Shown here: positions 57,443 through 62,329 of the stretch, piece after piece
Layout of the letters: every line of letters starts with the position of its first letter
How positions within the stretch are numbered: the stretch's first letter is position 1
NCBI RefSeq assembly: GCF_950066645.1
Contig: NZ_CATMFB010000017.1
Location: forward strand, 1-64,000
Direction: 5' to 3'
DNA: 64,000 nucleotides
Source: an uncultured Thalassolituus sp.
GTDB lineage: Bacteria > Pseudomonadota > Gammaproteobacteria > Pseudomonadales > Oceanobacteraceae
The notes under the pieces: model-generated
What the model saw: the letters and a program-made list of their open reading frames with translations, nothing else
Databases searched by the model: none
Told to the model about the DNA's origin: nothing
Program-made: the position numbers and the translations under genes

Positions 57443-58789
57443 TTACTGCCGGGAAGACGGATTACGGCGACGGCGCGGACGGCGGCGTTTCTTGTTCGCG
57501 CTGTCGTCTTCCGGCACGTACTTGACCGGTTCTGGGGTAATGTCTTTCTGAGCCTGAGTCCAGAAATCACACAGCTCACCCAGGTTTTCGCCCGACTGAT
57601 GACGCAGCAGCAGGAAGTCATATGCTGCGCGGAAGCGAGGATGCCCAAGAAACTCAGCAATCTTCTTGCTGCGGGTTTTCGGCAAACGTAACTGCATTTC
57701 CCAGATTTCGCGCATAGGAATAGAGAAGCGCTTAGGAATCGCTGTCGCCTTGATCTGTTGTGCCAGCACCCGGTCTGCCGCTTTCTGCATGGCTGGGTGT
57801 GGTGGCAGGCCCTGTTCTTCGTATTCACGGCGCACGCGTTCAACCTGAGGCCAGAGCAGAGCAGCAAGGAAGAAGTAAGGTGTTACCGACTTACCCGCTT
57901 TGATGCGATCGTCGGTATTTGCCATGGTGTTCTCAACCAGGCGTACTGCTGCGTCATCGTCCTGGAGGCAATGCTCTGTCGCCGGGAACAGGGTAGCGAA
58001 GAGGTGATATTCGCGCAGCAGACGCAGCGTCTCGAGTGCATTGCCGGCCAGAAACAGCTTCAGCACTTCCTCAAACAGGCGTGCAGCGGGGATCTGCTCC
58101 AGCAGGGGAGCCATGTCGCGGATCGGCGCGGCCGTGTGTTGTTCAATACTGAATCCCAGCTTTACCGCAAAACGGATTGCCCGCAGCATACGGACCGGAT
58201 CTTCGCGATAGCGGGTCTCTGGGTCACCAATCAGACGCAGGCGTTTCAGCTGCATGTCTTCCCAACCACCGGCATAGGCATGAACGCTGAAATCATCAAT
58301 GTTGTAGTACAGCGCGTTAACCGTGAAGTCACGGCGCATGGCGTCTTCGTCTTTGTTTCCGTAAACATTATCGCGCAGGATCATGCCCTGATCGTCCTGA
58401 CGTGACACTTTGTCAGAATGATCCTCAGAGGGCGGTGCCCGGAACGTGGCTACTTCAATCACTTCGCGGCCAAACACCACGTGAACCAGCTTGAAGCGGC
58501 GACCGATCAGGCGGGAGTTGCGGAACAACTGATTCACCTGCTCAGGAGTGGCATCCGTCGCCACATCAAAATCTTTGGGGTTCAGGCCGAGCAGGTTGTC
58601 CCTGACGCCGCCACCAACCAGATACGCTCCATAGCCTGCCTTACGTAAGCGATACAGCACCTTCAGCGCGGGTTCGCTGATGTTATTGCGGGAAATGCTG
58701 TGCTCGTCACGGGGAATGACTTTCAGTGGGATTTCTTCGGCTTCCTGCTTCTGTCCGAAGAGGCGTTTCACACGGTTAATGAGGGTCAC
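57443..58789 (-). CDS. pcnB: Poly(A) polymerase I
   Basis: YLVGGGVRDNLLGLNPKDFDVATDATPEQV; basic C-terminal tail. Confidence 0.95.
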   Translation of the reverse strand: MTLINRVKRLFGQKQEAEEIPLKVIPRDEHSISRNNISEPALKVLYRLRKAGYGAYLVGGGVRDNLLGLNPKDFDVATDATPEQVNQLFRNSRLIGRRFKLVHVVFGREVIEVATFRAPPSEDHSDKVSRQDDQGMILRDNVYGNKDEDAMRRDFTVNALYYNIDDFSVHAYAGGWEDMQLKRLRLIGDPETRYREDPVRMLRAIRFAVKLGFSIEQHTAAPIRDMAPLLEQIPAARLFEEVLKLFLAGNALETLRLLREYHLFATLFPATEHCLQDDDAAVRLVENTMANTDDRIKAGKSVTPYFFLAALLWPQVERVRREYEEQGLPPHPAMQKAADRVLAQQIKATAIPKRFSIPMREIWEMQLRLPKTRSKKIAEFLGHPRFRAAYDFLLLRHQSGENLGELCDFWTQAQKDITPEPVKYVPEDDSANKKRRRPRRRRNPSSRQ

Positions 58790-58847
58790 AGGTAACGCTT
58801 ATCTCTGGCTTGCTTTGGCTGGCGAGTGTAACGTTTAGTGATCGCCA

Positions 58848-58879
58848 AATAAACAAAAAGCCGCAGTTGCGGCTTCTTT
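58848..58879 (-). terminator. Intrinsic terminator of crc-like sRNA copy 1
   Basis: Minus strand AAAGAAGCCGCAACTGCGGCTTTTTGTTTATTT. Confidence 0.85.
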
Positions 58880-59138
58880 GGGTTCCGGCTGTTGTTGTTA
58901 TTGTTGCCGGTAACACTGCTCAGTCTGTCGACAGAGGTTCTGAATGGGCATTCCGCTGCCTCATTTTTTATTTTTGTTTTCAGCGCACAGACTGCGCATT
59001 CAGAACCTTTGTCTCTGCAGGCCTTTGTTATTGTTATGAGTGGCTCTGCGGTCTTACCGGCACTTTATTATTGTTATTGGTGTGCCGTCTTTCGTGAGGC
59101 TTAGCATTTGTTATTTTTATCAGTTGCCGTGCCATCTG
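58853..59138 (-). ncRNA. CrcZ-like Hfq-titrating sRNA, copy 1
   Basis: Predicted start 12 nt past the -12 element of TGGCACGACCTTCGCT (59164-59149); five CA-rich motifs on the minus strand (CTGATAAAAATAACAAATGC, CCAATAACAATAATAAAG, CATAACAATAACAAAGG, GAAAACAAAAATAAAAAATG, GGCAACAATAACAACAACAG); terminator GCCGCAACTGCGGCTTTTTGTTT; same locus as Pseudomonas crcZ. Confidence 0.8.
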
Positions 59139-59148
59139 ATAGTAATAA

Positions 59149-59164
59149 AGCGAAGGTCGTGCCA
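59149..59164 (-). promoter_or_regulatory. Sigma54 -24/-12 promoter of copy 1
   Basis: TGGCACGACCTTCGCT vs consensus TGGCACGNNNNTTGCW. Confidence 0.78.
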
Positions 59165-59207
59165 ACTTTAGAAAATCTAGTAAAAACAAGCACTTAAGAA
59201 AATACAG

Positions 59208-59227
59208 GTGTCTATAAAAATAGACAC
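59208..59227. promoter_or_regulatory. Perfect 8-4-8 palindrome upstream of promoter copy 1
   Basis: GTGTCTATAAAAATAGACAC. Confidence 0.7.
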
Positions 59228-59238
59228 ATCTCAAAATG

Positions 59239-59297
59239 TGTTACGAAACATTACGTGAAGTGTAACCCTTGGGTAACAAACGTCATGAAACGTAACA
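59239..59297 (-). promoter_or_regulatory. Putative CbrB upstream activating sites, copy 1
   Basis: TGTTAC (59239), GTAACC at N17, GTAACA at N28, further GTAACA at 59292. Confidence 0.6.
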
Positions 59298-59388
59298 GTG
59301 TGACGCAGTCGGTCTTCGACCTGGGTAGCAGATCCTGGAATGGCGCAGAGATAGCGTATGGATGAGGGGTGCGGCTGAACGCCGGGCA

Positions 59389-59416
59389 ATAAAAAAGCCG
59401 CAGTAGCGGCTTCTTT
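59389..59416 (-). terminator. Intrinsic terminator of crc-like sRNA copy 2
   Basis: Minus strand AAGAAGCCGCTACTGCGGCTTTTTTATT. Confidence 0.85.
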
Positions 59417-59675
59417 GAGTTCCGGCTGTTGTTGTTATTGTTGCCGGTAACACTGCTCAGTCTGTCGACAGAGGTTCTGAATGGGCATTCCGCTGCCTCA
59501 TTTTTTATTTTTGTTTTCAGCGCACAGACTGCGCATTCAGAACCTTTGTCTCTGCAGGCCTTTGTTATTGTTATGAGTGGCTCTGCGGTCTTACCGGCAC
59601 TTTATTATTGTTATTGGTGTGCCGTCTTTCGTGAGGCTTAGCATTTGTTATTTTTATCAGTTGCCGTGCCATCTG
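59390..59675 (-). ncRNA. CrcZ-like Hfq-titrating sRNA, copy 2 (near-identical to copy 1)
   Basis: 537-bp-offset duplicate of copy 1 with its own promoter, CA motifs and terminator. Confidence 0.8.
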
Positions 59676-59685
59676 ATAGTAATAA

Positions 59686-59701
59686 AGCGAAGGTCGTGCC
59701 A
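59686..59701 (-). promoter_or_regulatory. Sigma54 -24/-12 promoter of copy 2
   Basis: TGGCACGACCTTCGCT. Confidence 0.78.
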
Positions 59702-59744
59702 ACTTTAGAAAATCTAGTAAAAACAAGCACTTAAGAAAATACAG

Positions 59745-59764
59745 GTGTCTATAAAAATAGACAC
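59745..59764. promoter_or_regulatory. Perfect 8-4-8 palindrome upstream of promoter copy 2
   Basis: GTGTCTATAAAAATAGACAC. Confidence 0.7.
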
Positions 59765-59775
59765 ATCTCAAAATG

Positions 59776-59834
59776 TGTTACGAAACATTACGTGAAGTGT
59801 AACCCTTGGGTAACAAACGTCATGAAACGTAACA
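59776..59834 (-). promoter_or_regulatory. Putative CbrB upstream activating sites, copy 2
   Basis: Same TGTTAC / GTAACC / GTAACA set as copy 1. Confidence 0.6.
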
Positions 59835-59925
59835 GTGTGACGCAGTCGGTCTTCGACCTGGGTAGCAGATCCTGGAATGGCGCAGAGATAGCGTATGGAT
59901 GAGGGGTGTGGCTGAACGCCGGGCA

Positions 59926-59951
59926 ATAAAAAAGCCGCGATAGCGGCTTTT
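59926..59951 (-). terminator. Intrinsic terminator of crc-like sRNA copy 3
   Basis: Minus strand AAAAGCCGCTATCGCGGCTTTTTTAT. Confidence 0.85.
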
Positions 59952-60155
59952 CGGGATTCTGGTGCGTCATCTCTGTTTCACTGGCTGATGTCCCGTAACT
60001 CTTGTTGTTGTTCTTACGGGAGTCAGTTCTGTGGAATGACACTGATTATTCGCTTTTCTTCCCCGGTGGTCCTGCAGGCCTTTGTTATTGTTAGAAGTGG
60101 CCGGTTCCGGTGCAGCGATGCGTTTTATTTTTATTGTCTGCGTCGCTTCATAGTA
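59927..60155 (-). ncRNA. CrcZ-like sRNA, copy 3 (shorter, divergent)
   Basis: CA motifs on minus strand (GAACAACAACAAGAG, CTAACAATAACAAAGG, GACAATAAAAATAAAACG), terminator GCCGCTATCGCGGCTTTTTTATT, -24/-12 element upstream. Confidence 0.7.
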
Positions 60156-60165
60156 CTTAAGTATT

Positions 60166-60181
60166 AGCCAGAATTGTGCCA
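60166..60181 (-). promoter_or_regulatory. Sigma54-like -24/-12 promoter of copy 3 (weaker -12)
   Basis: TGGCACAATTCTGGCT; same spacing as the other copies. Confidence 0.65.
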
Positions 60182-60230
60182 TGTTTAAAAATATTGTATA
60201 AATCAATAAGTTAGTGTTTTCTCGGGCGAG

Positions 60231-60305
60231 TGTTACTGAGAAAGTGTTACCTTTCCTTACGCATTTTGACCTGCCGGAGTAACAGCATCTGTTACTCAGG
60301 TAACA
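60231..60305 (-). promoter_or_regulatory. Putative CbrB upstream activating sites, copy 3
   Basis: TGTTAC at 60231, 60245 and 60290; GTAACA at 60279 (N28 from 60245) and 60300. Confidence 0.6.
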
Positions 60306-60390
60306 TGAGGTGCCCTTGCGAAAATGGAATCGTTGAAAATATGGCTGATGAGGTCTCATCCCGAAAGGCCCAAGACAGTATGAAAGGCAG

Positions 60391-60422
60391 AAAATAAAAA
60401 AGCCGCTGGGGTGGGCGGCTTC
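60391..60422 (-). terminator. Intrinsic terminator of crc-like sRNA copy 4
   Basis: Minus strand GAAGCCGCCCACCCCAGCGGCTTTTTTATTTT. Confidence 0.82.
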
Positions 60423-60674
60423 TCAGGGCTTTATTGTTATTGTTCTGTGCTCTGCCACAGGTGTCATCGTCGTTTTGAATGAACAGTCAGACCGTATCTT
60501 ATTGTTTTTATTGGTCTTTCATGGCCGCTCATTCGAAACAATCAATGGTGGCGATTGTCGTTCTTGTTATGAGTGAAGGAACCACAGGCGCTTTGTTATT
60601 GTTGTTGGTGCGCCTTCCCTAAACTCTCAAGCTTTGCCTCTTTGTTATTTTTGTTTATGGACACATGCTTGATA
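60394..60674 (-). ncRNA. CrcZ-like sRNA, copy 4 (proximal to cbrB)
   Basis: CA motifs on minus strand (CATAAACAAAAATAACAAAGAG, CACCAACAACAATAACAAAGC, CATAACAAGAACG, CCAATAAAAACAATAAG, GAACAATAACAATAAAGCC), terminator and -24/-12 promoter. Confidence 0.8.
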
Positions 60675-60684
60675 TTGTTTATTT

Positions 60685-60700
60685 AGCTAATACCGTGCCA
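60685..60700 (-). promoter_or_regulatory. Sigma54 -24/-12 promoter of copy 4
   Basis: TGGCACGGTATTAGCT. Confidence 0.75.
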
Positions 60701-60743
60701 GAAATACAAAATACATATAAATCAATGGGTTATGAAATTACAG

Positions 60744-60763
60744 GTGTCTATAATTATAGACAC
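60744..60763. promoter_or_regulatory. Perfect palindrome upstream of promoter copy 4
   Basis: GTGTCTATAATTATAGACAC; same distance from the -24 element as in copies 1 and 2. Confidence 0.72.
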
Positions 60764-60774
60764 TTCGACTAAAG

Positions 60775-60823
60775 TGTTACGAGATCTGAGCCATTCGGTA
60801 ACAGTTCTGTATGTTAGGTAACA
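60775..60823 (-). promoter_or_regulatory. Putative CbrB upstream activating sites, copy 4
   Basis: TGTTAC-N17-GTAACA and a second GTAACA at 60818. Confidence 0.62.
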
Positions 60824-60925
60824 CTGTGTAATTTGATGAGTCACAATCCGCCAGCAGGCGAAGGCCTGTTGGCAGAGGAGCAGCGAAGAAGACTGCGTCG
60901 GGGGCAGGCGCCGGAAGAAGGAGGG

Positions 60926-62329
60926 TTACTTGCCTTTTTTGCGGGGAATGCCCAGGCGCTGGCGACGTTCCCAGAGGGACTTACGGGAGATGCCCAGTTT
61001 TTTGGCCAGTTCGGTTTCAGTCATCGAGGCTTCGTTTTCGAGAACGAAGTGGACGAAGTAATCATCGAGAGACAGATCCCCCTGATTTCCATTCGCCGGA
61101 TCGTCCGCCTGGTAAGGGTTACTGGTATCAACGAGGTTGTTACGCATGGTTTCACTGAGGTAACGGTCAGCTGAGACCTCAATACCGAGCAGCGAGGCTT
61201 CGATGCTGTTGTCGTCGGCCAGAATGACTGCCCGTTCTACTGCGTTTTCGAGTTCGCGGACATTGCCCGGCCAGTGATAGGTGCGGATGGCGTGCAAGGC
61301 CTCGTCACTGAACTGCATTGCGGGCTGCTGCATCCGCTCACAGGCGCGTGTCAGCATGGCTGTGGCAATCTCAACGACGTCTTCACCACGTTCACGCAGC
61401 GGTGGCAGATGCAGCTCAACGACATTCAGGCGGTAATACAGGTCTTCCCGGAACTCGCCCATAGAGGCCAGCTCTTTCAGGTGTCGGTGAGTGGCCGCGA
61501 CGAGGCGCACATTGACCTTACGGCTCTGCACTGAGCCCACGCGGCGTATTTCCCCTTCCTGCAGCACCCTGAGTAGCCGGGCCTGAGCTTCCAGCGGTAA
61601 TTCGCCAATTTCGTCCAGGAAGAGAGTGCCACCGTCTGCGGCTTCGACCAGACCCTGGCGTTGTGCAGTTGCGCCGGTAAACGCGCCTTTCTCATGCCCG
61701 AACAGTTCGGACTCAATCAGGGTTTCCGGGATGGCAGCACAGTTGACTGAGATCAGCGGGTTGTTGGCGCGACGACTCTGACTGTGCAGGGCACGGGCGA
61801 CCAGCTCTTTACCGGTACCGGATTCACCCTGAATCAGTACGGTCGCATCGGTCGGTGCCACTTTAGAAATTTTACGGAAGAGTAACTGCATGGGCTCGCA
61901 GCTGCCGATAATGCCAGTGCTGCTGCCTTCCGGGTCCGGTGAGGCGTCACCTGCTACCGCAACCGGCGTTTCGGAGGACATTTTCCCCTTGCTGAGGATA
62001 CGGGTAACGGCCTGAAGCATTTCATCGTGGTCAAACGGTTTGGCGATGTAGTCGACCGCGCCTAACTTCATGGCGTCCACAGCAGAGCGCAGGCTGGCGT
62101 AGCTGGTCATGATTAACACGGGAGTGTTACCGGCCAGAGTGATCAGTTCGGTGCCGTTGCCACCCGGCAGACGCAGATCGCTGATGATCATGTCGAACTG
62201 GGAAAAATCCTGCTCTTTGGCGGCATCCAGTGAGTCCACATCCGTCACTTCGTGGTCGTGACGCTGCAACAGGCGTCGAACGGCCTGGCGGATAATGGCT
62301 TCGTCTTCAACGACTAAGATGTGACTCAT
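60926..62329 (-). CDS. cbrB: CbrB-like NtrC-family sigma54-dependent response regulator
   Basis: REC domain, [22 protein letters not shown]-terminal Fis-type HTH; upstream of pcnB and downstream of a CbrA-like kinase. Confidence 0.9.

Follow-up and report, generated by a model that had tools for sequence, protein, structure and literature searches.

Organization of the cbrB-pcnB locus

The window analysed here is a stretch of 64,000 nucleotides from an uncultured member of Thalassolituus, a marine oil-degrading genus. The interval between cbrB and pcnB holds four tandem transcription units, all on the minus strand and numbered c1 to c4 starting from cbrB (Table 1). Each unit combines TGTTAC/GTAACA subsites, an IHF consensus site and a sigma54 promoter of the form TGGCAC-N5-TNGC with a CA-rich body that contains AAYAAYAA-type motifs and ends in a GC-rich intrinsic terminator. 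The order CbrA-CbrB-sRNA-PcnB is shared with loci of Pseudomonas, Halomonas and Gilvimarinus. Given the sigma54 promoter with CbrB-type subsites, the cbrB-pcnB synteny and the repeated AANAAYAA motifs, c1 to c4 are predicted to be CrcZ-like sRNAs; the Rfam CrcZ model (RF01675) scores 16.9 bits, below its gathering threshold of 95. A suspected truncation of CbrA was rejected, as its reading frame continues open on the upstream side of the listed start, in the direction of the window edge. Past the cbrB stop lies a GC-rich hairpin, CTGCCAACAGGCCTTCGCCTGCTGGCGG (minus strand, about 60846-60876; -19.4 kcal/mol), that has no long T-run and is possibly a 3'-end stabiliser.

Table 1. Coordinates of genes, predicted sRNAs and promoter elements in the window; offsets are counted from the first base of TGGCAC
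Feature	Position	Strand	Remarks
CbrB orthologue (sigma54 activator; receiver, AAA+ and HTH)	60926-62329	-	Pfam; 65% identity to the Pseudomonas fildesensis locus; synteny
CbrB-type subsite TGTTAC (F), c1, -123	60818-60823	-	consensus from PMC6296734, PMC8871633
CbrB-type subsite TGTTAC (F), c1, -103	60798-60803	-	
CbrB-type subsite GTAACA (R), c1, -80	60775-60780	-	
Palindrome GTGTCTAT-AATT-ATAGACAC, c1 (cbrB-proximal promoter)	60744-60763	-	exact match
TGTAWTT block directly after the palindrome	60736-60742	-	whole element TGTCTAT-N4-ATAGACA-N2-TGTAWTT
IHF consensus site TAACCCATTGATT, c1, -32 to -20	60720-60732	-	0 mismatches to YAANNNNYTGATW; conserved family-wide
Sigma54 -24/-12 promoter of sRNA c1 (TGGCACGGTATTAGCT)	60685-60700	-	-24 element starts at 60700
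Predicted CrcZ-like sRNA c1, CA-rich, AAYAAYAA motifs	60400-60674	-	start about +26 from the -24 T; terminator 60421-60400
Sigma54 promoter of sRNA c2, without palindrome	60166-60181	-	-24 element starts at 60181
Predicted CrcZ-like sRNA c2	59932-60155	-	terminator 59949-59932
Palindrome GTGTCTAT-TTTT-ATAGACAC, c3	59745-59764	-	exact match
Sigma54 promoter of sRNA c3	59686-59701	-	-24 element starts at 59701
Predicted CrcZ-like sRNA c3	59395-59675	-	terminator 59412-59395
Palindrome at the promoter of c4, the tandem duplicate of c3	59208-59227	-	exact match
Sigma54 promoter of sRNA c4	59149-59164	-	-24 element starts at 59164
Predicted CrcZ-like sRNA c4	58858-59138	-	terminator 58875-58858
pcnB	57443-58789	-	

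How strongly carbon catabolite repression acts in pseudomonads is set by CrcZ-type sRNAs. According to PMC6296734 and PMC8871633, CbrB, IHF and sigma54 drive the transcription of these sRNAs. The Pseudomonas crcZ and crcY promoters and those of Thalassolituus have in common the cbrA-cbrB-sRNA-pcnB neighbourhood, a CA-rich sRNA, TGTTAC/GTAACA subsites about 20-25 bp apart, a -24/-12 promoter, and an IHF site between the activator sites and the promoter (PMC6296734, PMC8871633). Thalassolituus differs in having up to four tandem sRNAs, in a subsite order of F-F-R instead of F-R-R, and in an additional palindrome of 18 bp, which comes after the last CbrB subsite and before the IHF site and is not described for crcZ/crcY in the sections of these papers drawn on here (PMC6296734, PMC8871633). 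The locus is a known promoter type that carries a new extra element. Both papers call CbrAB exclusive to pseudomonads; contrary to this, many genomes of the family have cbrAB together with between one and four CrcZ-like sRNA promoters (58858-60823 in the window; L145-L184), and a similar synteny is seen in Gilvimarinus, Cellvibrionaceae and Halomonadaceae.

A palindrome at three of the four sRNA promoters

A sequence-only reading of the window had reported a perfect 20-bp palindrome, GTGTCTAT-N4-ATAGACAC, at three places, each centred about 53 bp from a -24 element. All three copies were recovered as exact matches, and in c1, c3 and c4 alike the palindrome spans -63 to -44, with its centre at -53.5. 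That one promoter (copy 3 of that reading) is without it also holds: this is c2, at 60181, where a GTAACA subsite (60231-60236) occupies the slot. The window contains four matches to the palindrome at up to three mismatches, against 0.19 in 100 dinucleotide shuffles. Units c3 and c4 are two nearly identical CrcZ-like sRNA units that arose by a 537-bp tandem duplication (58839-59783), and the copies at 59208 and 59745 share 98 identical bp surrounding the palindrome and 97% identity over 300 bp. Because both stem from this one duplication, the window offers two independent cases of the palindrome, not three. Furthermore, the fixed distance alone proves little, since the last CbrB-type subsite lies at an equally fixed distance from palindrome-free promoters; the R subsites are mostly centred at -77, including at promoters that have no palindrome.

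In the sequence-only reading the palindrome had not been recognised as a known CbrB, IHF or RpoN element, and that it is none of these is borne out by the presence of TGTTAC/GTAACA, the IHF site and TGGCAC-N5-TNGC as separate elements at the same promoters. Compared with the arrangement TGTTAC-N12-14-GTAACA-N15-19-GTAACA, the palindrome has neither a TGTTAC nor a GTAACA core. It also departs from the IHF consensus (WATCARNNNNTTR), the match to which lies beside it at -32 to -20 and not inside it, so that the palindrome is placed between the CbrB subsites and an IHF site that adjoins it downstream. Among the 77 sRNA promoters of the family, 76 have the IHF consensus YAANNNNYTGATW just upstream at no more than one mismatch (7.6 in shuffles), and 46 have it exactly (0.4 in shuffles). 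A sigma70 promoter overlapping the palindrome was considered and rejected, the region having two matches where 2.6 were expected.

TyrR/PhhR-type boxes have the consensus TGTAAA-N6-TTTACA. Like the palindrome, they are 18 bp long with a TGT-N12-ACA frame and a 7-4-7 layout; the frame fits, but the inner bases of the palindrome are CTAT/ATAG as opposed to AAA(T)/(A)TTT, and there are no sites elsewhere in the genome.

Two further elements were observed upstream of sRNA promoters. In several genera, whether or not the palindrome is present, the sequence CTTTAGTC (60764-60774 in the window) stands after the last GTAACA subsite as a conserved extension of it. In another genus (g8; L151-L157), a different 20-bp palindrome, GTGTAACC-N4-GGTTACAC, lies at about -145 to -125 upstream of the first sRNA promoter; it has CbrB-like half-sites and at times UUCG or GCAA loops, and could act as a cbrB terminator or as a palindromic binding site for CbrB.

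Conservation within Thalassolituus

The core TGTCTAT-N4-ATAGACA is exact in seven of nine Thalassolituus genomes, each time in the cbrB-pcnB interval and at -62 to -45 of one homologous promoter. Extended by the block that follows it, as TGTCTAT-N4-ATAGACA-N2-TGTAWTT, it is likewise exact in 7/9 genomes and restricted to this locus. The two genomes without the core (G003 and G008) have the most divergent CbrB of the genus (73%). In a gap-free alignment of the seven species, all 14 columns of the core arms are invariant compared with one of four in the spacer, and 4/27 columns are invariant at -27 to -1, the stretch between the IHF site and the promoter. Given a background of 22 invariant columns in 79, the chance of 14 invariant arm columns is about 2e-8, a figure that ignores relatedness; the seven species share ancestry, and their conservation does not amount to seven independent events. 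As the outermost pair of the 20-mer varies, being unpaired in three of the seven species (CTG..CAA, GTG..CAG and CTG..CAC), the conserved unit is the 18-bp core rather than the 20-mer. The earlier suggestion that the arms look selected is thus upheld by their invariance across seven species, while its argument from three copies is weakened by two of them being recent duplicates. We consider this cross-species conservation of the arms to be stronger evidence than the fixed promoter distance. Differential regulation of the copies, which had also been proposed, is compatible with the finding that in every palindrome-bearing genome only some of the sRNA copies carry the palindrome and others lack it.

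Beyond the locus, no further match was found in the same genome at up to two mismatches, nor with other spacer lengths from 0 to 30. At exactly three mismatches there are six matches, two of which (L005, L007) lie beyond a long reading frame or at its border and the remainder within reading frames of unrelated genes; a reversed control pattern matched this genome more often than the true one (19 versus 9). The seven other genera of the family had no core match at zero mismatches, and among 392 genomes of the order the exact core was limited to Thalassolituus and one isolated match (L215), which is at chance level. Neither L215 nor two matches on viral contigs have a regulator in a telling position, and extra sites in two Thalassolituus genomes (G001 and G003) fall within coding sequence. 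A candidate regulator gene was not found, with no gene for one carrying the palindrome, and literature searches for the motif brought up nothing relevant among the papers listed.

A mosaic c3 promoter

The c3 promoter of the genome under study is a mosaic. Its UAS is identical at 52 of 66 positions to that of the palindrome-free c3 promoter of another Thalassolituus genome (G001), compared with 28-32 of 66 for c1 promoters, and its RNA has most 9-mers in common with c3 RNAs, its own duplicate c4 set aside. The segment at -63 to -43, on the other hand, is c1-like at 15-18 of 20 positions and c3-like at 5-8, and that at -43 to -30 is c1-like at 10-11 of 13 and c3-like at 4-5. A c1-like stretch from -63 to -30 within a c3-like promoter indicates that a tract of about 33 bp, comprising the palindrome and the TGTAWTT block, entered c3, whether through conversion or through an independent gain, before being duplicated into c4. 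This tract behaves as a module, and the mosaic is the best argument offered by the sequence that it is a functional unit.

Alternative explanations

Two explanations chiefly compete with an operator, namely that the palindrome is a cbrB terminator, though a weak one, or an accessory site for CbrB. As a weak intrinsic terminator, the palindrome would form a hairpin with a T-rich tail on the RNA-sense strand and stop cbrB read-through into the sRNA promoter. A scan for terminator patterns picks out each of the three palindromes, the hairpin is predicted at -6.0 to -8.7 kcal/mol with 4-5 U in 8, and the T-rich tail is conserved. Moreover, six of the genomes (G000, G001 and G004-G007; in G006, 176 nt were searched) have no stem with a long T-run between cbrB and the UAS, although in the genome under study (G000) the GC-rich hairpin of -19.4 kcal/mol lies there, with a tail of 4 T in 8. 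The sRNAs at this locus end in intrinsic terminators that resemble the palindrome in being inverted repeats with a 4-nt loop and a T-rich tail, but these are stronger: their stems are GC-rich, at -9.6 to -12.0 kcal/mol, and their tails have 6-7 U in 8, whereas the palindrome has a weak AT-rich stem and a poor tail, and is kept downstream of true terminators. Thus, G002 retains it about 100 nt past a strong standard terminator (-21.0 kcal/mol, 6 T in 8), the c3 and c4 palindromes of the window lie downstream of the strong c2 and c3 terminators, where a terminator would be needless, and the tail-proximal base pair is broken in three of seven species. Overall, we regard a terminator as an unlikely explanation.

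Similarly improbable is that the palindrome serves as an accessory CbrB binding site, filling a fourth position in the series of CbrB subsites. Across the family, CbrB-type subsites form a ladder with steps of about 10-11 bp (-131, -120, -111, -100, -77, -65, -53, -42), and the palindrome centre at -53.5 falls on it; the same slot is taken by GTAACA in c2 of this genome, and likewise in a single promoter of G025 and one of G026. The CbrB of P. putida is described as binding loosely (PMC6296734). The arms, however, have no TGTTAC/GTAACA core even though the same promoters hold perfect copies, the HTH region of CbrB is essentially alike whether or not a genome has the palindrome, and in P. putida the subsites are described as non-palindromic and the protein as a monomer in solution (PMC6296734). 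CbrB is therefore a poor candidate for the binder. The on-ladder phase of the palindrome may matter for stacking with CbrB, and a single coincidence of phase is weak evidence.

It is quite improbable that the palindrome is a non-functional relic kept via common descent or gene conversion: it is confined to one genus and its copies in this genome spread by duplication, but amid scrambled neighbouring columns the TGTAWTT block and all 14 columns of the arms stay fixed. An operator of EctR, a MarR-type repressor of ectoine synthesis, which would tie osmotic stress to carbon control, was rejected as very improbable, because a site upstream of ectR/ectA (the near copy ATGTCTATTCAATTAGACAC, with one mismatch, between an ectR-like gene and ectA; L185) exists in G002 only, where it is probably due to chance, and the other palindrome-bearing species have ectR with no such site upstream, their best matches having at least 5/14 mismatches.

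A putative operator of a second regulator

Taken together, we contend that the palindrome is probably, though by no means certainly, the operator of a putative dimeric, sequence-specific regulator that acts on selected CrcZ-like sRNA promoters of Thalassolituus. The inverted repeat, the invariant arms and the variable spacer agree with a dimeric operator, and the half-site centres in the 7-4-7 layout are 11 bp, or one helical turn, apart, which is the spacing a dimer should show; from these features we infer that a protein binds here. Counting against an operator, a regulator with a single target locus would be unusual, and a hairpin with a T-rich tail is compatible with the sequence too.

The putative dimer would sit between CbrB and IHF. 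Because the right half of the palindrome and the TGTAWTT block abut the IHF core, the bound protein could block or reshape the IHF-assisted loop that joins CbrB to sigma54-RNA polymerase, and we offer such hindrance or reshaping, with less certainty than binding itself, as the simplest working model. A second signal would then tune the output of the palindrome-bearing sRNA copies, more likely by lowering it, and the palindrome-free copies would answer to CbrB alone; a role of the regulator as a co-activator instead is nearly as likely. We propose only tentatively that this regulator is genus-specific and dedicated, acting atop the control of the presumed anti-Hfq/Crc sRNAs by CbrB, sigma54 and IHF, such that some tandem copies respond to a second signal, for example one derived from hydrocarbons or fatty acids, and others only to CbrB.

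If an operator of this kind is indeed present, an extra conserved element on only some of the tandem copies would account for several sRNA copies being kept, and it would reveal a second input into the carbon preference of marine oil-degrading bacteria.
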